Assembly: GCA_017398045.1 (NCBI GenBank)
Contig: JAFQHI010000025.1
Span: forward strand, 310,001-374,000
Source of the DNA: Alistipes sp.
Lineage (GTDB): Bacteria > Bacteroidota > Bacteroidia > Bacteroidales > Rikenellaceae
DNA length: 64,000 bases
Reading direction: 5' to 3'
The translations under genes were made by a program, and so were the position numbers. Positions within the stretch are counted from its first letter, which is position 1. Every line of letters starts with the position of its first letter. Below, one piece after another: positions 7,585 through 22,515 of this stretch. The notes beneath the pieces were generated by a model that worked only from the letters and a program-made list of their open reading frames with translations, did not search any database and was not told the origin of the DNA.

Positions 7585-7629
7585 TCACACCTTTTTTTAT
7601 TGCCCTAAAGGCAATAAAAAAAGGTGTGA
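7585..7629. terminator. Bidirectional terminator, 20-bp perfect inverted repeat
   Basis: Two 20-bp arms (7585-7604 and 7610-7629) are exact reverse complements around the 5-nt loop CTAAA. On the minus strand the SRP RNA 3' stem (CTCACACC) is followed by seven T residues inside this palindrome. On the plus strand a GGTGTGGTATCACACC hairpin followed by a T run also ends here. One element can therefore terminate transcription from both sides. Confidence 0.85.
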
Positions 7630-7720
7630 GCTGTTTATATCGCACCGCTACAACCGCATACCCTTGCTTGCTTCCGCACCTGGGGGGTTCTGCAGGAGCT
7701 GGTCGTATAAGACTCACACC
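7623..7720 (-). ncRNA. ffs: Small signal recognition particle RNA (4.5S type)
   Basis: On the minus strand a 98-nt RNA begins GGTGTGAG (7720) and ends CTCACACC (7623); these termini pair and are followed by a T run. The middle contains the hallmark of the SRP helix 8 domain: CCAGGTGCGGAAGCAAGCA then GGGT, with the GGAA tetraloop and the asymmetric-loop bases that bind Ffh. Length fits the short bacterial form without an Alu domain. The RNA joins Ffh to target membrane proteins co-translationally. A consensus promoter with correct spacing sits directly upstream at 7727-7757. Identification rests on sequence and fold by eye. Confidence 0.9.
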
Positions 7721-7726
7721 GAGGGA

Positions 7727-12530: not shown

Positions 12531-12585
12531 TTGGCAGATTCACTATTTTGATGTAATTTTGAAAGCTAATACCCCTATGGGGTAT
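12531..12585 (+). promoter_or_regulatory. Promoter and palindrome upstream of the surface nuclease operon
   Basis: TTG (12531-12533), 20-bp spacer, TAATTTTG (12554-12561), a consensus promoter for the five-gene operon. At the expected start of transcription lies a perfect 7-3-7 inverted repeat, ATACCCC-TAT-GGGGTAT (12569-12585). It may be an operator or a 5' mRNA hairpin. The leader to the ATG at 12708 is about 140 nt, and its last 60 nt are an A/C-rich unstructured stretch. Confidence 0.65.
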
Positions 12586-12707
12586 AAAAGAGACCGTTTT
12601 GAGGCGGATGGCCGGACAAACAGAGGTGCCAACGTGTGCAAACGCGCTCTTGCAACAAGCAACAAAACAAACAACAAATAATTACAAACAAACAACACAA
12701 AAGAAGT

Positions 12708-15700
12708 ATGAAAAAAATGCTTTGGACCAAGTTGTCGCTTATGGTGGTGATGCTGCTTTCGGCCGTATCGTTTACCGCCTGCGTGGATGACAACGAAGAT
12801 GTGGGTATGCCCTTCCTCGAACTCGACATCGAGGAGCTGCCCCTCACCGAGGAGGGTGGTACGGCCACCTTTACCGTTTCGACCAACCGCCCCTGGACCG
12901 CTACGCTCAGCGAGGGCAGCGAGTGGATTTCGCTCTCGACGATGGAGGGCGCAGGCACCGAGGAGGTGGAGATTTCGGTACCTGCAACCACCTACGGCCG
13001 CGTGGGTGAGGTGCAGTTCCACCTCTCGAACACCTATGCCGTCTATGAGACCAAGACCCTCGTTGTGAAGCAGGGCGAGGTTGAGGAGGAGGAGATAATC
13101 TACTCCGAGACCGTGGGTACGCAGTCGGTATCCAGCCCCTATCCCTATGTCGATGCCTACACCTCGTGGCAGACCGACGGTACGGGTGCTTCGACGGTTA
13201 CCTACTCGGGTAAGAGTGCCTCGGTACGTGCCTCGGGTCTTGCAAATGCCGGTTCGGGTCCGAATGTGATCTTCTTCGGTACGCTGCCCGCTTACTTCCA
13301 GGTGAACACCATTACGCTGCAGCCGCAGCACCAGCGCTTAGCACTTTCGTTCCTCGGCAGCTTCTCGTACAAGCCGGAGGGTTCGTCGGAGTATGACAAC
13401 ACGTTCAACTTCGATAACTTCACGGTAGAGATCAGCGGCGACGGCAAGAAGTGGTCGAAGCTCGAGTGTACGAAGGATAACGGCGATACGGAGCATCCCT
13501 ACTGGATTGCTGCCGAGTCGAAGTTTATCCTCACGGAGGTTCCCGAGCAGCTTTCGATCCGCTTCACGGCTTCGTTCGCTTCGGCCTTCCGTCTGGATGA
13601 TATCCGCCTGGAGACCTTCAACGGTACGGCTACCGAAATCGACCTGGCACAAGGCAAGGAGGATGGCGGTTCGACGGGTGGCGAGACGCCTGTTGTCCCG
13701 GCCGGCGATAAGATCTTCTACGAGTCGTTCGGTACGCCCGTCAAGGAGGGTACCTATTGGCCCTATGCCAACGAGAATGCCACGAATATCATGACCGGTA
13801 CGGGTGTTGTAGCCGGTACGACGACCTACAAGGGTTATGGCGTAACGGCCCGCACGGTGGGTACCTACACTTCGCCCAACCCGCCCGCATCGGGTGAGGG
13901 CCACATCTGGTTCCCCGCAGGCAAGACGGCCGACAAGAACTTCTTCGAGGTGCAGAAGCTGAATCTGAATGGTGAGAAGAACCTCGACATTTCGTTCTAC
14001 CTCCACGGCAACACCGACCCCTACAAGGAGGGAGATGTTGTGCTGCAACTCTCGGCCGATGGCGAGAAGTGGACGACGGTAGCCTTCACGACCGCCGCCA
14101 TCGCGGAGGCTGCGGAGAGTACCTGGAAGGTGGCCAAGGCTTCGGTGACGCTCAAGGAGTCGCCCGCCAACTTCTACCTCAAGTTCTCGTCGGAGACGAC
14201 GGGTGGTTGCCGTCTGGATGACCCGACCATCGTGAAGGGTAACGGCGGTACGGAGATTGACCTCGGTGCCGGTACGAGCGGTGAGGAGCCTACGCCTCCG
14301 ACCCCCTCGACCGATGTATCGACCGACTTCCCGGGTGCCGGTAAGTACCTCATGGTGGCTACGGCCGATGGTAAGGCACTGGCTGCTACGCCGCTGACGG
14401 CCGATAAGAACTATGGCTACCTGAGCGGTACGGAGGTGACCGTTTCGAATGGTCAGATTGCTGCCGACGGCACGTCGAATGGCCTGGCTTGGACGGTGGC
14501 TGCCGCCTCGTCGGAGGGTCAATATACGCTCTACGGTGCCGATAGCCGCTACTACTACATGACCGGTACCTACAACTCGTTCAACGTGAACGGTTCGGCC
14601 GGCACGGATGGTTATGCATGGGTATTCACGAAGAATACGGACGGTACCTATGCCGTGAAGAACGTGACGATGCAGAAGACCCTGCAATACGATACGAATT
14701 ACAGCTCCTATGGTGCTTATCCCGATACGCGCGGTCTGATGACCGACCTCTACAAGCTCAATGCCGAGGGTACGGCCTATGTGAAGGTAACGGGTGCCGG
14801 TACGGGTGGCGAGGAGCCTACGCCTCCCGCTCCGACGGGTGGTGAGTACGATGGCGACTACCTGGTAGTGGCCAACGTGAATGGCGTTTGGAGAGCCGCT
14901 ACGCCCGTTCCGGCCGATAAGACTTACGGCTATCTCCAGCCGACCGATGTAACGGTTTCGGGCAATGCCATCACGGCTGATGCAACGGCCAAGTCGCTCA
15001 ACTTCACCCTCAAGCAGGGGGCGACGACGGGTCAATACAGCCTCTACGGTGCCGATGGTCGCTACTACTACCTCTCGGGTACGCATAACTCGACCAACGT
15101 AACGGCCGAGTTGGGTACGGATGGCTACTATTGGTCGGTGGCCAAGAACAGCGACAATACCTTTACGCTGACCAATGTCACCATGTCGAAGACCTTGCAG
15201 TATGATACGCAGTATGGCTCGTATGGTGTATATCCCGATGTGCGCGGTCTGTATGTCTATCTCTTCAAGCTCAATGCGGCCGGCACGGCTTACGAGGCTG
15301 TTTCGGAGCTGCCCTCGACGGGTGGCGGTACGGAGCCTGACCAGCCCGACACGCCCGACACGCCCGACACGCCCGACACGCCTGATACGCCCGACCAGCC
15401 CGCAACGGGTTCGTTGCTCTGGAACGACGACTTCTCGCAGTTCGACAGCGCAACGGCTGACGGTACGGCCGATATCGGCACGTCGCTGACCGGCTCGCTC
15501 GATGGCTTCAAGGATAGCTACACGGGTGAGAAGGTCTATTCGGCAGCCGGTAAGATTAAGCTCGGCTCGTCGTCGAAGAAGGGTAAGCTGACCACCCCCG
15601 CCATGAAGGCTACGGCTACCGTGGGTGCTACGCTGACGGTCGATTTGGCAGCCTGGGCCAATGCTACGTCGGGTGCTACGGACTCGGCCAAGGTGGTGAT

Positions 15701-15881
15701 TACGGTCAATGGCGGTACGATTGAGGGTGGTGCCTCGGTGACGGTGACCTTGGACGGTACGATGAAGAGCTACACCTACACGCTCTCGGGTGTATCGTCG
15801 GCCACGACCATCACCTTTGAGTCTGCAACGGCATCGAAGTGCCGCTTCTACCTCGACAACCTGAAGGTACAACAGCAGTAG
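12708..15881 (+). CDS. Modular BACON-domain surface lipoprotein
   Basis: A 1057-residue predicted lipoprotein heading the operon. ATG 12708 gives a signal peptide ending AVSFTAC, with the lipidated Cys near residue 25. Modules by eye: a BACON domain (about 34-122, with GGTATFTVSTNRPWTATL and WISLS); two beta-sandwich modules (about 145-320 and 345-525), both ending in a RLDD motif; two copies of a 140-residue module (about 545-691 and 716-862) that share YGADxRYYY, MxKTLQYDTxYxSYG and YPDxRGL; a Pro-Asp-Thr linker of 9-bp repeats (about 880-896); and a third beta-sandwich (about 903-1057). There is no obvious catalytic centre, so it is probably a binding protein that presents substrate to the co-encoded nucleases and receptor. 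BACON modules are usually linked to carbohydrate or mucin binding. Confidence 0.8.
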   Translation: MKKMLWTKLSLMVVMLLSAVSFTACVDDNEDVGMPFLELDIEELPLTEEGGTATFTVSTNRPWTATLSEGSEWISLSTMEGAGTEEVEISVPATTYGRVGEVQFHLSNTYAVYETKTLVVKQGEVEEEEIIYSETVGTQSVSSPYPYVDAYTSWQTDGTGASTVTYSGKSASVRASGLANAGSGPNVIFFGTLPAYFQVNTITLQPQHQRLALSFLGSFSYKPEGSSEYDNTFNFDNFTVEISGDGKKWSKLECTKDNGDTEHPYWIAAESKFILTEVPEQLSIRFTASFASAFRLDDIRLETFNGTATEIDLAQGKEDGGSTGGETPVVPAGDKIFYESFGTPVKEGTYWPYANENATNIMTGTGVVAGTTTYKGYGVTARTVGTYTSPNPPASGEGHIWFPAGKTADKNFFEVQKLNLNGEKNLDISFYLHGNTDPYKEGDVVLQLSADGEKWTTVAFTTAAIAEAAESTWKVAKASVTLKESPANFYLKFSSETTGGCRLDDPTIVKGNGGTEIDLGAGTSGEEPTPPTPSTDVSTDFPGAGKYLMVATADGKALAATPLTADKNYGYLSGTEVTVSNGQIAADGTSNGLAWTVAAASSEGQYTLYGADSRYYYMTGTYNSFNVNGSAGTDGYAWVFTKNTDGTYAVKNVTMQKTLQYDTNYSSYGAYPDTRGLMTDLYKLNAEGTAYVKVTGAGTGGEEPTPPAPTGGEYDGDYLVVANVNGVWRAATPVPADKTYGYLQPTDVTVSGNAITADATAKSLNFTLKQGATTGQYSLYGADGRYYYLSGTHNSTNVTAELGTDGYYWSVAKNSDNTFTLTNVTMSKTLQYDTQYGSYGVYPDVRGLYVYLFKLNAAGTAYEAVSELPSTGGGTEPDQPDTPDTPDTPDTPDTPDQPATGSLLWNDDFSQFDSATADGTADIGTSLTGSLDGFKDSYTGEKVYSAAGKIKLGSSSKKGKLTTPAMKATATVGATLTVDLAAWANATSGATDSAKVVITVNGGTIEGGASVTVTLDGTMKSYTYTLSGVSSATTITFESATASKCRFYLDNLKVQQQ
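15343..15396 (+). repeat. Tandem 9-bp repeats coding for a (Asp-Thr-Pro)n linker
   Basis: Five to six near-identical 9-bp units (GACACGCCC type) inside the BACON lipoprotein gene encode repeated Asp-Thr-Pro between the second 140-residue module and the last beta-sandwich. Such in-frame arrays can change length by slippage without breaking the frame. Confidence 0.9.
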
Positions 15882-15901
15882 GAATTGGTTGCAAAAGAAT
15901 C

Positions 15902-17131
15902 ATGCGAAGAGCTTTGAATCGTCTGTTGAGCGGTCGCTTGGGACTTTGGGTCTTGCTCCTCGGTGGGCTGACGGCCTGCTCGAGCGGTGGCGATGACCCC
16001 GATACGGGGTCGGCCACGGTGAATTGGGAACATACGACCATGACTTCGGAGGCGGGTGTGGCACGTCTGCGCATTGCAGACGATGCCGTCCCGGGCCTTC
16101 GCTATACGGCCGAAATCACGAGTGGCGATTGGGCTTCGTTTGGCTATTGGAGCCGCTACGAACTGACTAAAAGCGGTGAGGTGGGAACTTCCCTCGGCAC
16201 GCGCCTGATTGATATCTACTACCTCGACAATACCGAGACCACGGAGCGCACGCTCACGGTTCGTTTCACCTTCGAGGGGCGCGAACCGGTGGTGTTGAGC
16301 CTTAAGCAACCCGCTTTGGGCAATGTGACCCCGACACCGAGTGAGACCACGTGGAGTTGGCCCGAACTGCCCGCCAAGGTCGAGAACGCGAATTGGAGCT
16401 ATGTGACTCATTTCTGCCCCGTCTATGACCAGACGCTCGGCAAGGAGGTGACCAAGCGCAACTTCTCGCTCTGCTTCGACAAAACGAAGCGTGCTTCGTG
16501 GTGGGTGGCCTATCCGATGCACTCGGTCTATCTCGGTTCGCTCTCGCGTCCGAATCCCGACCCGTGGGCCTTCGACCCCGAGATTGAATCCTCGTGGCAG
16601 GCCAATCTGGCCCTCGGCAGCTACTCGGGTTCGCCCGTCAGAGGCCATCAGGTAGCCAATGCCGACCGTGACGCCAACCGCACGATGCAGTACCAAACCT
16701 TCTATTGTTCGAACTCGACGCCCCAGAACTATGACCTCAATGGCGGTGCCTGGGCGCGTTTGGAGGGTAAGGTGCGCAATTGGAAGTGTAACGATACGCT
16801 CTATGTTGTGACGGGTGCCTATTGGGACCCCGCATCGTCGAACAAGACGACCGACCGAGCCGGTAACACGTGTCCCATTCCGACCCACTACTTCAAGGTT
16901 TTGGCACGCACGGTGAGGGGCAATGTTCGCAAGGCGGGCGATAAGTTGGGCGACTACAAGGCCGACGAGCTGCAAACGATTGGCTTCTGGGTCGAGAATA
17001 AGAATGTATCGACCGAGGCGCAGGATTGGGTGATGTCGGTTGAGGAGATTGAGCAGAAGACCGGTTTTACCTTCTTCCCCTCGCTTCCCGCGGCAGCCAA
17101 AAAACAGAAGAACAAGACGCAATGGTTCTAA
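15902..17131 (+). CDS. DNA/RNA non-specific endonuclease lipoprotein (NUC family)
   Basis: A 409-residue predicted lipoprotein nuclease. ATG 15902 gives a signal peptide ending LGGLTAC (Cys near residue 26). The N-terminal 120 residues look like a beta-sandwich spacer of BACON type (TSGDWASFGYWSRYELTKSG, LTVRFTFEGREPVVLSLKQP). The C-terminal part is a beta-beta-alpha-metal nuclease of the Serratia NucA/EndoG type: PVRGHQVANADR carries the general base His249, and YDLNGGAWARLEGKVR carries the Mg-binding Asn280. The usual DRGH motif is VRGH here, a change found in some Bacteroidetes members as far as I recall. The enzyme would cleave DNA and RNA at the cell surface. It starts 20 bp after the BACON lipoprotein gene. 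Confidence 0.88.
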   Translation: MRRALNRLLSGRLGLWVLLLGGLTACSSGGDDPDTGSATVNWEHTTMTSEAGVARLRIADDAVPGLRYTAEITSGDWASFGYWSRYELTKSGEVGTSLGTRLIDIYYLDNTETTERTLTVRFTFEGREPVVLSLKQPALGNVTPTPSETTWSWPELPAKVENANWSYVTHFCPVYDQTLGKEVTKRNFSLCFDKTKRASWWVAYPMHSVYLGSLSRPNPDPWAFDPEIESSWQANLALGSYSGSPVRGHQVANADRDANRTMQYQTFYCSNSTPQNYDLNGGAWARLEGKVRNWKCNDTLYVVTGAYWDPASSNKTTDRAGNTCPIPTHYFKVLARTVRGNVRKAGDKLGDYKADELQTIGFWVENKNVSTEAQDWVMSVEEIEQKTGFTFFPSLPAAAKKQKNKTQWF

Positions 17132-17151
17132 CCGAATAAATGAATTTAGCG

Positions 17152-18186
17152 ATGAAGAAAATAGCTTTTATACTGCTCCTGACTGCCCTCGTGGTTACGA
17201 CCGCCGAGGCACAGAAGCCCTATAAGGTGATGTTCTGGAACATCGAAAACTTCTTCGATACGGTCGATGACCCCGCCACACGTGACGAGGAATTTACGCC
17301 CGAGGGTGTGAAGGCCTGGAACGAGGCCAAATACGAAAAGAAGCTCGCGAATGTGGAGCGTGTGGTGTTCGATATTGCCGCACAGGACCGCATCTATCCC
17401 GCCGTGATTGGCTTCTCGGAGGTGGAGAATCGCTCCGTGTTGGATGATATCGTCTCGACCCCGAAGCTGGCCCCCGCCTCGTATCGCGTGGTGCATTACG
17501 ACTCGCCCGAGGCGCGTGGTGTGGATGTGGCCTTTATCTACCGCCCCGACCAGTTCAAGCTGGAGGGTAGTTTTCCGGTGAAGGCCGAAGTGCCGCAGTT
17601 GCCCGAATTCCGCACGCGCGACATCCTGACGATGTGGGGAACAATTGACGAGGAGCCGTTCTACTTCATGGTCGTTCACTGGCCCTCGCGCCTCGGTGGT
17701 AAGGATGCCTCGGAGTTTAAGCGTGTGGCTCTGGGCGAGCAGATGCGTCGTCTGGCCGACTCGGTTTTGATGCAGAACCCCAAGACGAAGATTGTCGCCA
17801 TGGGTGACTTCAACGACGACCCGACCGACCCCAGCATGGAGGAGGCGTTGGGAGCCAAAGGCAAACTCAAGGAGTTGGTGGAGGGCGATTTCTTCAACCC
17901 CTACCACGAGATGTTGCGTGCCGGTATGGGTACGTTGGCCTATGGCGATGCCTGGAACATCTTCGACAATATTGTCGTGACGGAGAACCTCATCTCGGCC
18001 AAGAAGGGCGAGCTGAAGCTGCAAAAACCGAAGGGGTCGAAATTCTACGGAGCGATTTTCCGCGCCCACTACCTCTTCCAAAAGGAGGGTCAGTATAAGG
18101 GCTATCCGTTGCGTACCTATGTGAGCAACAGCTTCCAGGGTGGCTTCTCGGACCACCTTCCGGTCTATATCTATATTGCCAAATAA
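17152..18186 (+). CDS. Secreted endonuclease/exonuclease/phosphatase (EEP) family protein
   Basis: A 344-residue secreted member of the DNase I-like superfamily. ATG 17152 (MKKIAFILLLTALVVTTAEAQ) gives a standard signal peptide; ATG 17140 would add four residues. All core motifs are present: FWNIENFFD (metal-binding Asn), FSEVEN (Glu), DVAFIY, VHWPSR (His), GDFNDDP (Asp and Asn) and a terminal FSDHLPV (Asp-His). The family hydrolyses phosphodiesters; with the NUC enzyme encoded 20 bp upstream, extracellular DNA or RNA breakdown is the natural reading. There is no lipobox, so it is probably periplasmic or released. It lies 14 bp before the TonB receptor gene. Confidence 0.9.
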   Translation: MKKIAFILLLTALVVTTAEAQKPYKVMFWNIENFFDTVDDPATRDEEFTPEGVKAWNEAKYEKKLANVERVVFDIAAQDRIYPAVIGFSEVENRSVLDDIVSTPKLAPASYRVVHYDSPEARGVDVAFIYRPDQFKLEGSFPVKAEVPQLPEFRTRDILTMWGTIDEEPFYFMVVHWPSRLGGKDASEFKRVALGEQMRRLADSVLMQNPKTKIVAMGDFNDDPTDPSMEEALGAKGKLKELVEGDFFNPYHEMLRAGMGTLAYGDAWNIFDNIVVTENLISAKKGELKLQKPKGSKFYGAIFRAHYLFQKEGQYKGYPLRTYVSNSFQGGFSDHLPVYIYIAK

Positions 18187-18200
18187 ATAACTCAAACCAT

Positions 18201-20960
18201 ATGAAAATCAAAAGTTTACTAACGCTTTTACTCGCACTCGTCACCCTGACGGCTACGGCCCAGGTAGGTGGCGTGAAGGGTCGTGTCGTTTCGCGTTCGG
18301 GACGTACGGCCGTGAGCGGAGTAAAGATTCAGCTTACGCCGGGTGAGCAGACCACCACGAGCGACGAGGAGGGTAACTTCCTCTTCGAGCTGGTCGAGGA
18401 GGGTGTCTATCAGCTCCACTTCGAGGCCGATGAGTTCGAGCCGCTTTCGATTCAGGTGCGCGTAGGAAAGCTCGTGCATGATATGCGCACGGTGGTGCTT
18501 GTGCCTGCTGTCCAGCAGGAGATTTTGGACGATGCCATCTTCACGGAGTTTGACACCGAGTCGGCAGACGATTCGCACGCCCTGCCCACCTCGTTGTCGG
18601 CTTCGAAGGACATCTTCAACAACATCGCCTCGTACAACTTCAGCGAGATGCGCTTCAATGTGCGTGGTTACGACTCGCAGTATCAGGATGTCTATATGAA
18701 CGGCATCCGCCTCAATGATGCCATGACGGGCTACTCGCCTTGGTCGTTGTGGACGGGTCTGAACGATGCTACGCGCAACCAGGAGGTGACCACCGGTTTG
18801 ATTGCTTCGGAGCAGGGCTTGGGCGGTATCGGCGGTACGACGAATGTGAATACGCTCCCTTCGCAGATGCGTAAGGGCTTGCGTACCAGCCTCGTTTCGG
18901 CTAACCAGACCTATCGTTTCCGTGCTATGGTGACCTATGCGTCGGGTTTGCAGGACAATGGCTGGGCCTATGCCTTCTCGCTCTCGACCCGTCAGGGTGG
19001 CAATGACTATGTGGAGGGTGTCTATTACAACGCCTACGGCTACTTTGCCTCGGTCGAGAAGCAGTTCCTCTCGGGTCGTCACCGTCTGGCTTTGACCCTG
19101 TTGGGCGCACCCACCGAGCGTGGTGTGCAGCAGGCTTCGGTGCAGGAGGTCTATGACCTGGTGGGTAACAACTACTACAACCCGAACTGGGGTTATCAGC
19201 AAGGCGAGAAGCGTAACGCCCGTGTGCGTGATAACCACGAGCCGCTCGTGATGCTGAACTATACGTTCAATATCTCGGACCGCACGAAATTCGACCTCGC
19301 TACGTCGTTCCGCTTCGGTCGCAACGGCTATTCGGCCCTGACGTGGCAGGATGGTGCCGACCCGCGCCCCGACTACTACCGCTACCTCCCGTCGTACTTC
19401 GTGCGCGACAACAATTTGGAGGGTGCAGCCTGGCAGTATGAGCGTTGGAGAGCCAATTACGAGAACGTGCGTCACATCCAGTGGGATAAGTTCTACGAGA
19501 CGAACTACACGCGCGAAAATCCCGTCGATAGCGAAATCTACGGTCCGGGCGCACGCTCGAACTACATGATTGAGGAGCGTCACACCGACCAGCGCGATTG
19601 GAATCTGGTGATGACCTTCCACCACCTCTTTAAGAACGGTTCGAAGCTGAATGCCGGTCTGAACCTGCGTCGCAATCGCACCGAGTACTACTCGGAGGTG
19701 AAGGACCTCCTGGGCGGTGACTATTGGGTCGATGAGGATAAGTTTGCCGAGCGCGATTTTGCCTCGCCCACGGCCAAGCAGAACGATTTGGAGTACTATA
19801 ATAAGTATGGCCACGCGCGTGCAGCCAAGGAGGGCGATAAGTATAGCTACGACTACTATGCGCACGTGCTGAAAGGTGGTGCCTGGGCATCGTATCAGTG
19901 GCAGACGGGTGGTTTCTCGATGGTCCTCGGTGGCGAGATTGGCGCGACGAAGCTCTGGCGCGAGGGTCTGTGGCAGAAGGGTCTCTTTGCCGACAATTCG
20001 AAGGGCGACTCCGAGAAGCTCGACTTCCTCAATTACAAGGGTAAGTTAAACCTTGCGTATCGTTTCTCGGCGGCTCACTCCGTAGAGGTGAATGCCCTCT
20101 ATATGCAGCAGGCTCCCGACTTTAAGAATGCCTTCGTATCGCCCCGTACACGCAACTCCGTGACGCCGAACCTCGAAGAGGAGAAGGTGCTGGGTGTCGA
20201 TGCTTCGTACAACCTCCGTTATGGCGATTTGAAGGCGCGTATTTCGGGTTATTACACCGTGATTAAGGACCAGACGAAGCTCATGTCGTACTACGATGAC
20301 GTGAACTCGAGCTTTACGAACTTTGCCATGAGCGGCATCGACAAGCTTCACTTCGGTTTGGAGGCTGCCGTTCAGGTGCCTATCTATCGCGGTTTGTCGT
20401 TGCGTGGTGCGTTGAGCTGGGGTCAATATACCTACACCTCGAATCCGGACTACGTGCAGACGCGCGATAACAGTGCCGAGGTGCTGACCGAGGGTAAAGT
20501 TTATTGGGAGGATTTCCGCGTGGAGAGTACGCCGCAGCTGGCTGCCAGCATCGGCCTGAACTTCCGCTCGAACAACAATTGGTTTCTCTCGGCCGACTGC
20601 AATTACTACGACCATATGTACCTCTCGATGAGTCCTGTCTATCGTACCGATGAGGTGATTTCCAGCTCGATGACCGATGCCGATATCGCCTATATGCGTC
20701 GTCAGGAGCGTTTCGACGATGCCTTCGTGCTGAACGCCTCGATTGGTAAGAATTGGTCGATTAAGTACAAATATACGCTCGGCTTCAGCCTCAATGTCGA
20801 TAACCTGTTGAACAATCAGGATATCAAGACGGGCGGTTACGAGCAGACGCGCCTTGTGAAGAATACCGAGACGACGGTGGATTCCTATCAGCCCTTCGAT
20901 TCGAAGTATTTCTATATGTTCGGCACGACCTACTACCTGAATGTCTATTTCCGATTCTAA
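18201..20960 (+). CDS. TonB-dependent outer-membrane receptor with carboxypeptidase-like domain
   Basis: A 919-residue outer-membrane transporter. Signal peptide at residues 1-20, then a CarboxypepD_reg-like domain (about 22-105, GGVKGRVVSRSGRTAVSGVKIQL), a plug (about 115-235, with FNVRGYDSQYQDVYMNGIRLND), and a beta barrel ending in the C-terminal aromatic motif NVYFRF. No SusD gene accompanies it, unlike glycan-utilisation loci. Its neighbours are two nucleases and two lipoproteins, so the imported substrate is more likely nucleotides or oligonucleotides than sugars. This is inference from context: the receptor sequence itself does not reveal its ligand. Gaps on both sides are under 25 bp, supporting one operon. 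Confidence 0.9.
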   Translation: MKIKSLLTLLLALVTLTATAQVGGVKGRVVSRSGRTAVSGVKIQLTPGEQTTTSDEEGNFLFELVEEGVYQLHFEADEFEPLSIQVRVGKLVHDMRTVVLVPAVQQEILDDAIFTEFDTESADDSHALPTSLSASKDIFNNIASYNFSEMRFNVRGYDSQYQDVYMNGIRLNDAMTGYSPWSLWTGLNDATRNQEVTTGLIASEQGLGGIGGTTNVNTLPSQMRKGLRTSLVSANQTYRFRAMVTYASGLQDNGWAYAFSLSTRQGGNDYVEGVYYNAYGYFASVEKQFLSGRHRLALTLLGAPTERGVQQASVQEVYDLVGNNYYNPNWGYQQGEKRNARVRDNHEPLVMLNYTFNISDRTKFDLATSFRFGRNGYSALTWQDGADPRPDYYRYLPSYFVRDNNLEGAAWQYERWRANYENVRHIQWDKFYETNYTRENPVDSEIYGPGARSNYMIEERHTDQRDWNLVMTFHHLFKNGSKLNAGLNLRRNRTEYYSEVKDLLGGDYWVDEDKFAERDFASPTAKQNDLEYYNKYGHARAAKEGDKYSYDYYAHVLKGGAWASYQWQTGGFSMVLGGEIGATKLWREGLWQKGLFADNSKGDSEKLDFLNYKGKLNLAYRFSAAHSVEVNALYMQQAPDFKNAFVSPRTRNSVTPNLEEEKVLGVDASYNLRYGDLKARISGYYTVIKDQTKLMSYYDDVNSSFTNFAMSGIDKLHFGLEAAVQVPIYRGLSLRGALSWGQYTYTSNPDYVQTRDNSAEVLTEGKVYWEDFRVESTPQLAASIGLNFRSNNNWFLSADCNYYDHMYLSMSPVYRTDEVISSSMTDADIAYMRRQERFDDAFVLNASIGKNWSIKYKYTLGFSLNVDNLLNNQDIKTGGYEQTRLVKNTETTVDSYQPFDSKYFYMFGTTYYLNVYFRF

Positions 20961-20984
20961 CAACCTCGAAAAACGATTTAAGCT

Positions 20985-22019
20985 ATGAAAAAGATTGCAA
21001 ATATGTTTGTCGTTGCGCTTCTCGCGCTTGTGATGACGGGTTGTTATAACGACTTCGAGAACCCGGCCGAGGGTAAGATTTTCTCCGACGAGGATTTCAC
21101 GGCCGAGGGAATGTCCTACATCTCGATTAAGGAGCTGAAGACCACCTTCTGGCGCACGACGGGTGCCGGTACGGGTGCGGTGGCTTCGTGGGAGATTGAC
21201 GAGCCGCTCTATACGCGCGGCAAGGTGATTTCTTCCGACCGCTACGGCTCGATTTATAAGTCGGTCTATCTATACGACGAGGTGACCGAGTCGGCCATCG
21301 AACTCAAACTCAACAGCGGCACCTATGTCTTCTATAGCGCAGGTCGTGAGCTGTTCGTGAAGCTCGAGGGCTTGGTGCTGGGTAACTACCGTGGTATGGT
21401 GAGCATCGGTACGAAGTCGGGTAACCCCGAGTATTCGAATGATAACCTCGAACTTCCCGTGATGATTGCCGACCATGTCTTCCGTGGCCGTGATTTGGGT
21501 ATGCAGCAGAGCGATACGCTTGTGGTGAATGCTTCGAACTACATGGCCTTGACGGACGATGCGCTGGGTCGCCTGGTGCGCTTCGAGAACATCGAGAGCA
21601 AGTTCGGCACGGCTCCCTGGGGCTACAACAACTCCTTCCCCAACTACTTCGCCAACCAGACCTCGTATGATGTCAATTCGACCGAGACGCTCAATGGTGT
21701 GAGTTTCCAGGAGATGATTCAGGGCAAACCTACGTGGGCTGCGAAGGGCAAGCTCGGCGACGATAAGAAGGATACCTACTTCTATGGCTCGGCCTGGTTT
21801 ACCTACGACGCTACAGACCCGGGTCAGGATTCGAATGCTGCCCTCGGCAACTATGTGGTGCGCACGAGCGGCTATGCCCGCTTTATGGAGGAGGCTATTC
21901 CGGCCGATGGCACGAAGGTCGATTTGACGGCTATCCTGGTTAAGTACACCAACTCGTCGGGTCGCTACGTGACCTACCAGCTCACGCTCAACGACGGCAA
22001 CGATGTGGTAGCGAAATAA
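20985..22019 (+). CDS. DUF5689-domain lipoprotein
   Basis: A 344-residue predicted lipoprotein; signal peptide ends LVMTGC with the Cys near residue 20. From about residue 45 it has the DUF5689 pattern (MSYISIKELK, then YTRGKVISSDRYGSIYKSVYLYDE, IELKLNSGTY, GRELFVKLEGLVLGNYRGMVSIG), an OB-like fold common in surface lipoproteins encoded next to TonB receptors. OB folds often bind single-stranded nucleic acid, which would suit the operon, but binding here is untested. It may occupy the place that SusD takes in glycan systems, i.e. the lid or capture protein of the receptor. Last gene of the operon, followed by a terminator. Confidence 0.82.
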   Translation: MKKIANMFVVALLALVMTGCYNDFENPAEGKIFSDEDFTAEGMSYISIKELKTTFWRTTGAGTGAVASWEIDEPLYTRGKVISSDRYGSIYKSVYLYDEVTESAIELKLNSGTYVFYSAGRELFVKLEGLVLGNYRGMVSIGTKSGNPEYSNDNLELPVMIADHVFRGRDLGMQQSDTLVVNASNYMALTDDALGRLVRFENIESKFGTAPWGYNNSFPNYFANQTSYDVNSTETLNGVSFQEMIQGKPTWAAKGKLGDDKKDTYFYGSAWFTYDATDPGQDSNAALGNYVVRTSGYARFMEEAIPADGTKVDLTAILVKYTNSSGRYVTYQLTLNDGNDVVAK

Positions 22020-22046
22020 ATTAAGAATTAAGAATTCTTGGAGCGA

Positions 22047-22088
22047 AAATCGGGGTTGTGGTTAATGGCTGCGACCCCGATTTGTTTT
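22047..22088 (+). terminator. Terminator of the surface nuclease operon
   Basis: Ten-base stem AAATCGGGGT / ACCCCGATTT (22047-22056 with 22074-22083) followed by GTTTT. Confidence 0.8.
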
Positions 22089-22109: not shown

Positions 22110-22232
22110 TTAAGGGTTTTTAAGGGTTGCTAAAGGTTGCTAAAGGTTACTAAAGGTTACTAAAGGTTGCTAAAGGGGCCCCTTAAACCTTTAATTACCT
22201 TTAGTTGCCTTTATCGCCCTTTTCGCCCTTTT
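22110..22232. repeat. Phased 10-bp repeat array with inverted arms, centred on GGGGCCCC
   Basis: Seven 10-bp units of the type TAAAGGTTGC run from 22111 to 22180. They are followed by a complementary arm (CCTTAAACCTTT...CCTTTAGTTGCC...) to about 22232. The junction is the palindrome GGGGCCCC (22175-22182). The whole can fold into a long imperfect hairpin with a one-helical-turn period. Same family as the arrays at 7.4, 33.2, 36.3, 45.5 and 60.6 kb. Confidence 0.9.
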
Positions 22233-22239
22233 CGTCTGT

Positions 22240-22440: not shown

Positions 22441-22515
22441 TCGGGGAGACTGGATTCGAACCAGCGACTTTCTGGTCCCAAACCAGACGCGCTAACCGGG
22501 CTGCGCTACACCCCG
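22441..22515 (-). tRNA. tRNA-Pro, anticodon UGG
   Basis: A 75-nt cloverleaf on the minus strand. It starts CGGGGTGTAGCGCAG (acceptor and D arm), has anticodon arm CTGGT-TTGGGAC-CAGA with UGG, and T arm CTGG-TTCGAAT-CCAG. The discriminator is A and CCA is not encoded. Acceptor position 6 (T) faces T at position 67, where a T-A pair is usual, so one acceptor pair is mismatched. All other stems are intact, and a strong terminator follows. I take it as functional, with the mismatch noted. Confidence 0.93.

Follow-up and report, generated by a model that had tools for sequence, protein, structure and literature searches.

A five-gene operon in a 64,000-nucleotide stretch of the Alistipes sp. genome (assembly GCA_017398045.1, contig JAFQHI010000025.1, positions 310,001 to 374,000; referred to here as the window, whose coordinates we use throughout) probably encodes a system that captures nucleic acids at the cell surface, cuts them and imports them with the help of TonB, a reading to which we assign a probability of about 0.72. 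A nucleic-acid substrate is well supported, and it may serve as food or for transformation; scavenging of nucleic acid as a source of phosphorus, nitrogen and carbon seems the likeliest main use in this lineage, where a nuclease lipoprotein of the NUC type has joined the operon. The original prediction, made from the sequence alone, was of a DNA- or RNA-eating analogue of a polysaccharide utilization locus (PUL). The nucleic-acid substrate stands, given the nucleases, the homology to a protein pair of Riemerella anatipestifer and an OB-like lipoprotein; the pedigree changes, the receptor and its lipoprotein being related to a DNA-uptake pair and not an ad hoc version of a PUL.

Relationship to DNA uptake genes of Riemerella anatipestifer

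Within the open-licence literature searched, DUF5689 is named in a single paper, a transposon screen of R. anatipestifer (PMC8459023; this and the other papers are cited from excerpts). Clean deletion of either RA0C_RS04915 or RA0C_RS04920 reduced natural transformation below detection, and in a speculative model of the authors the two products bind DNA and bring it across the outer membrane (PMC8459023). RA0C_RS04920 is composed of DUF5689 plus DUF5017, and homologues are called widespread in Bacteroidetes, yet those of RS04915 are given in Flavobacteriaceae only (PMC8459023). Gene 4 of the window operon, for a TonB-dependent receptor (TBDR), is a homologue of RA0C_RS04915, and gene 5 is a homologue of the DUF5689 part of RA0C_RS04920. 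The R. anatipestifer receptor matches three receptors of the host genome at 374, 172 and 142 bits (those scored in a phylum profile search, of 27 first-look candidates), and the window receptor is the best of these. TonB itself also bears on transformation in R. anatipestifer, where both tonBA and tonBB mutants show reduced levels; the authors blame iron for the tonBB effect, and the tonBA mutant has no iron defect (PMC8383284).

To identify the R. anatipestifer locus, genomes of its family with comEC close to the receptor were examined and one locus (L156; loci are denoted by L numbers) was chosen by its gene order. This order (RecA, DinB, three Sdh genes, ComEC, a short open reading frame (ORF), a carboxyltransferase, an endonuclease/exonuclease/phosphatase (EEP) gene, TBDR, DUF5689) fits the locus tags 04870, 04875 and so on to 04920 stepwise, and RS04910 is thus presumably the EEP gene. 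The EEP gene beside the pair is mentioned once in the excerpts of PMC8459023, and no EEP mutant appears in the tables among them. The window operon resembles this locus in having a TBDR that falls with the R. anatipestifer one in the receptor tree, a DUF5689 lipoprotein directly behind it and an adjoining EEP gene. It differs in that the R. anatipestifer-like EEP gene is on the opposite strand, there is no NUC gene or gene 1 relative in the locus as fetched, and the R. anatipestifer DUF5689 protein is longer, with a choice-of-anchor-J/DUF5017 part. The model for this full architecture, NF052645 (cut-off 475), scores the L156 protein as a full member at 599.3, a Kaistella protein (L076) below the cut-off at 408.2, and gene 5 at only 41.7 bits. 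We note that in the R. anatipestifer-like locus the DUF5689 gene is followed after 1–2.6 kb by genes for Cas2 and Cas1 (L156:18494–19718), placing CRISPR beside a DNA-uptake locus; a sister locus has a Cas9-looking ORF by eye (L158:18211–19899), with no Pfam match at 1e-5.

The receptor and the DUF5689 lipoprotein

The five genes are all on the + strand and are separated by gaps of 20, 20, 14 and 24 bp, as first described. Gene 4 (18201–20960, +, 919 aa) has an N-terminal CarboxypepD_reg domain, a plug and a barrel; CarboxypepD_reg is matched in Pfam and Plug at E 0.00099 (below the Plug cut-off), in keeping with its designation as a TonB receptor. Gene 5 (20985–22019, +, 344 aa) starts 24 bp behind it and is, as proposed, a DUF5689 lipoprotein (PF18942, E 2.5e-34), with the lipobox Cys of this and of genes 1 and 2 seen by eye. 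Its predicted structure has an OB-like core for which the best matches are nucleic-acid-binding OB proteins, and a nucleic-acid role is a likely function for DUF5689. We sought a solved structure of a receptor/DUF5689 pair and rejected this, as sequence matches in the PDB are confined to the N-terminal domain of the receptor and none was found for gene 5. The DUF5689 profile is also above cut-off in a Bacillus subtilis control genome; this species has an extracellular nuclease, YhcR, whose OB-type domains would fit and which may be the gene concerned.

The absence of SusD was correctly anticipated, with no SusD domain in the five proteins (Pfam, E up to 1), and on this basis a SusCD glycan locus was rejected. 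An OB-like lipoprotein directly behind the receptor agrees with the suggestion that DUF5689 stands in the place of SusD. The operon thus shares with SusCD PULs a TonB receptor, an adjacent surface lipoprotein and a surface enzyme lipoprotein, and differs from them in having nucleases rather than glycosidases and a DUF5689 lipoprotein in the SusD position. The barrel fold is also common to the BtuB-BtuG receptor-lipoprotein complexes of Bacteroides thetaiotaomicron (8blw, 8p97), and is no indication of function; their substrate is cobalamin, and the system is not known to include nucleases.

The nucleases and the modular lipoprotein

Gene 2 (15902–17131, +, 409 aa) encodes a NUC-type DNA/RNA non-specific endonuclease (PF01223, E 1.1e-37) with PDB sequence matches to EXOG and NucA-type nucleases. 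Residues R247 G248 H249, N280 and E288 are conserved, with H249, N280 and E288 in at least 93% of 26 aligned rows; the usual leading D of the motif is V246 in the window copy, and the His, Asn and Glu are the catalytic residues of the family. The lipobox Cys is likewise kept in at least 93% of the rows, so that a NUC-type nuclease lipoprotein is upheld. In one related locus (L193:1019–5607) there are three consecutive NUC-type genes 5′ of the EEP gene, a local nuclease expansion.

Gene 3 (17152–18186, +, 344 aa, or 348 aa if translated from another ATG at 17140) encodes an EEP protein (PF19580, E 1.4e-106). N34, E94, H180, D223, N225, D338 and H339 (348-aa numbering) are each present in at least 93% of 36 rows, and these make up the catalytic N, E, H, D-N and D-H motifs of the family. 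The prediction of two different surface nucleases holds for the two families and their conserved residues, and not for the location of the EEP protein. It has a signal peptide without a lipobox (a lipobox string search is positive in six of the 36 EEP rows, the window not among them), and it is therefore probably periplasmic rather than a second surface nuclease. There is a likeness to extracellular nucleases such as ExeM/NucH and NUC, in which the EEP and NUC catalytic families are used on extracellular DNA. However, with the ExeM/NucH family model (cut-off 300) the window EEP reaches 27.2 and so belongs to another EEP branch (PF19580); no PDB sequence matches it.

Gene 1 (12708–15881, +, 1057 aa) had been called a BACON lipoprotein. 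The lipobox (FTAC, with acidic residues after the Cys) is present by eye, whereas BACON (PF13004) is below threshold in the window copy (E 0.083, 13.3 bits versus a Pfam gathering score of 25) and above it in the relative at L040 (E 9.4e-9). Its linker is formed by 9-bp repeats at 15344–15395. There is no DUF5689 match in a Pfam scan of window gene 1, and one is present in five of the six operon gene 1 relatives scanned (L039, L040, L177, L179 and L191, with L038 the exception). Over the last 120 residues (15510–15875) there is a match, short of the cut-off (60.9 bits against 260; E 1.1e-16), to part of NF052644, a family of surface endonucleases of R. anatipestifer.

A simple scheme is that the OB-like DUF5689 lipoprotein would sit outside on the receptor and hold DNA or RNA, helped by gene 1, whose relatives often include DUF5689. 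The surface NUC lipoprotein would trim long polymers, the TBDR would thread strands or fragments into the periplasm, and the periplasmic EEP, whose gene adjoins that of the receptor in much of the phylum, would cut the imported strands further.

Conservation and spread

Within the order, 134 of 247 genomes have a receptor match (E 1e-30; 113 reach E 1e-94 by hand count), and within the phylum 154 of 296 genomes, each at least 90% complete, have a receptor profile match (E 1e-25), although these counts mix both sides of the receptor tree and include more distant TBDRs. In one flavobacterial family the receptor is found in 143 of 148 genomes (E 1e-60). Among the best 80 of at least 588 related loci, a DUF5689 gene is 3′ of the receptor on the same strand and within ~700 bp in all 80, and a divergent EEP gene is 5′ of the receptor in 72. 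These are from Kaistella, Chryseobacterium, Flavobacterium, Polaribacter, Winogradskyella and others, including one record titled Candidatus Nitrotoga and one locus (L120) that begins at a contig end; the set is weighted towards Flavobacteria by the flavobacterial sequence in the query's first row. Across 31 wider loci the DUF5689 gene is next to the receptor in 30, the EEP gene is on the same strand in five and divergent in 17, and NUC is 5′ in five. (These are from 40 loci, with L035, L054, L065–L068 and L073–L075 excluded as other receptor groups or genes; L060 ends inside the EEP gene.)

The original prediction proposed conservation of gene order across Bacteroidales as a check, and in 20 host-family loci picked for strong window-type receptors the order NUC-EEP-TBDR-DUF5689 on one strand is present in all 20 (one NUC, in L192, is a 136-aa fragment). 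A large ORF on the same strand precedes NUC in 18 of them; twelve of these ORFs are related to gene 1 by phmmer and seven have a DUF5689 match. Such conservation among relatives argues that the arrangement is beyond chance. Judged from these three sets of gene orders, the EEP/TBDR/DUF5689 core is phylum-wide and the NUC-containing operon a regional elaboration of it.

Recent gain of the operon by the host was considered and rejected: strong window-type receptors are present in 48 of 61 same-genus genomes (13 have weaker matches only; hand count), and the operon is thus an established trait of the genus. The receptors of L038 and L039, which are from another family and carry all five operon genes, nest inside the host genus in a careful 30-receptor tree (supports 98/96 for three rows and 100/99 for seven), and from this the operon has probably moved from the host genus into that family.

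A quick tree of 52 receptors (11 open forks and one long row, L035) splits 36, including the window and R. anatipestifer receptors, from the other 16 (branch 1.34, SH-aLRT 100), and places the window receptor on the DUF5689-linked side. There are two exceptions: L071, on the window side, has no adjoining DUF5689 gene, and for L074, which falls on the other side, a 1333-aa DUF5689-matching ORF lies ~2.4 kb away. A second DUF5689 locus of the host, outside the window (C15:22–27 kb; L035:8254–13486), has a tandem pair of DUF5689 genes, with a shorter receptor encoded on the opposite strand; receptor-DUF5689-DUF5689 loci are also found in L036 and L037, with receptors on the same branch as that of L035. 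A third host TBDR just before the window (C15:289.8–295.1 kb; L067:5819–11051) is on the other side of the tree and is followed by an 840-aa gene 1-related protein, giving a receptor with another non-SusD partner.

Alternative functions

Several observations weigh against a nucleic-acid import system. Identity to the R. anatipestifer pair is 26–28%, and the window DUF5689 protein lacks the C-terminal part of its R. anatipestifer counterpart. Both the receptor (isoelectric point 5.4; median over the 80 loci, 5.7) and the DUF5689 protein (4.6; median 4.8) are acidic, ComEC is near the receptor/DUF5689 pair in none of those 80 loci, and the open-licence literature searched (bioRxiv lying outside it) contains no experiment on the operon in the host lineage. 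The operon's own surface nuclease would also destroy transforming DNA, which counts as well against the view, rather unlikely in our judgement, that the operon is chiefly a natural-transformation machine. In that view DUF5689 and the receptor would bring double-stranded DNA to the periplasm, EEP would help to make single strands, a three-HhH protein, ComEC and DprA would carry on, and NUC would shorten or clear DNA. The mutant data on the homologous R. anatipestifer pair are in its favour, although Flavobacterium johnsoniae, which has homologues, could not be transformed in a test (PMC8459023). The host genome (91.5% complete) contains DprA, a ComEC (a 487-aa ORF, compared with a 605-aa frame in the R. 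anatipestifer-like genome) and a membrane-anchored protein with three HhH motifs, and these make transformation possible, but ComEC and DprA are widespread and no proof alone. The HhH protein has a homologue in the R. anatipestifer-like genome (C1:528127–529299), roughly where RA0C_RS02645 should lie if tag spacing is extrapolated. That no secretin was found in the host genome also speaks for this view; that there is no match in it to NamZ/DUF1343, which is essential in R. anatipestifer, speaks against it. We note that dprA on host contig C26 (L160:2603–3628) is near an ORF whose match to Cas9_a is weak (E 0.002) and short of the cut-off.

Less likely again is import, chiefly for phosphorus, of the products of extracellular cleavage in the form of short oligonucleotides, nucleotides or other phosphodiesters. 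The EEP and NUC families act on phosphodiesters. Phosphate removal lowers transformation of R. anatipestifer (PMC8383284), and phosphorus state and DNA uptake may therefore be linked there; against this, long DNA must pass in the homologous system, since transformation was scored with fragments of a whole marker gene with ~620-bp flanks (PMC8459023), and a Pfam scan of the five proteins shows no separate phosphatase domain. The low identity, the acidic proteins and the multi-domain, adhesive-looking gene 1 would be accommodated if the receptor had switched substrate in the Bacteroidales (for example to protein, haem or a glycan) with the nucleases defending against extracellular DNA traps or loosening biofilm. 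This we consider improbable, as an EEP gene keeps its place next to the receptor from Flavobacteria to Bacteroidales and what was added in this lineage is a second nuclease and not another enzyme class. A role in anti-phage defence was rejected, with no PADLOC match for the four genes submitted (genes 2–5).

Implications for Bacteroidota

To our knowledge, Bacteroidota mostly lack the usual DNA-uptake pilus, and the receptor-DUF5689 pair bears on the question of how DNA passes their outer membrane. What was already known of the pair is from one mutant study in one species (PMC8459023). Here it is traced over the Bacteroidota into gut-type Bacteroidales, mostly beside an EEP gene, and in this lineage is found in one operon with a surface nuclease, giving a defined set of genes with which feeding on DNA and the acquisition of genes could be tested in a major phylum of the gut. 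A broader proposal, made tentatively and at somewhat short of even odds, is that the EEP/TBDR/DUF5689 trio is a general Bacteroidota nucleic-acid importer, a TonB-powered substitute for the pilus-secretin route, which in gut Bacteroidales was joined by a surface nuclease and a modular lipoprotein for capture and so became a nucleic-acid utilization locus, with the package moving between families. No account of this wider system was found in the open-licence literature without bioRxiv, most subscription papers being outside the search. A 2025 review (PMC12236230) has no mention of Riemerella, Bacteroid-, Porphyromonas, TonB or Flavobacter-. Excerpts of PMC8630151 and PMC8289736 (the latter for Bacteroidota specifically) support the breakdown of nucleic acids by microbes in sediments and name no importer.

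Transcription signals and other features

The single promoter and single terminator described for the operon are consistent with our scans. A promoter-like motif, TAATTTTG, is located at 12554–12561 (+), ~147 bp 5′ of gene 1; it is of the Bacteroidota −7 type, for which the consensus is TAnnTTTG. It is the sole TANNTTTG on the + strand from 12100 to the gene 1 start, although with 37 such sites in the whole window versus 19.5 expected, a single site is weak by itself. A scan of the window for sigma-70-type promoters gave nothing above chance (six observed, 6.3 expected), and there is no known RNA element in the operon leader at the Rfam gathering level. A terminator-like hairpin of 17 pairs is at 22047–22083 (+) and has the longest stem listed among the 16 terminator-like sites of the window (10.4 expected).

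Elsewhere in the window, Rfam identifies a Bacteroidales small SRP RNA (7620–7726, −) and a tRNA (22441–22515, −). Just past the terminator, at 22121–22234, are tandem repeats of 9–10 bp, TAAAGGTTGC and ACCTTTAATT (a partly inverted form), followed by CCTTTTCGC.

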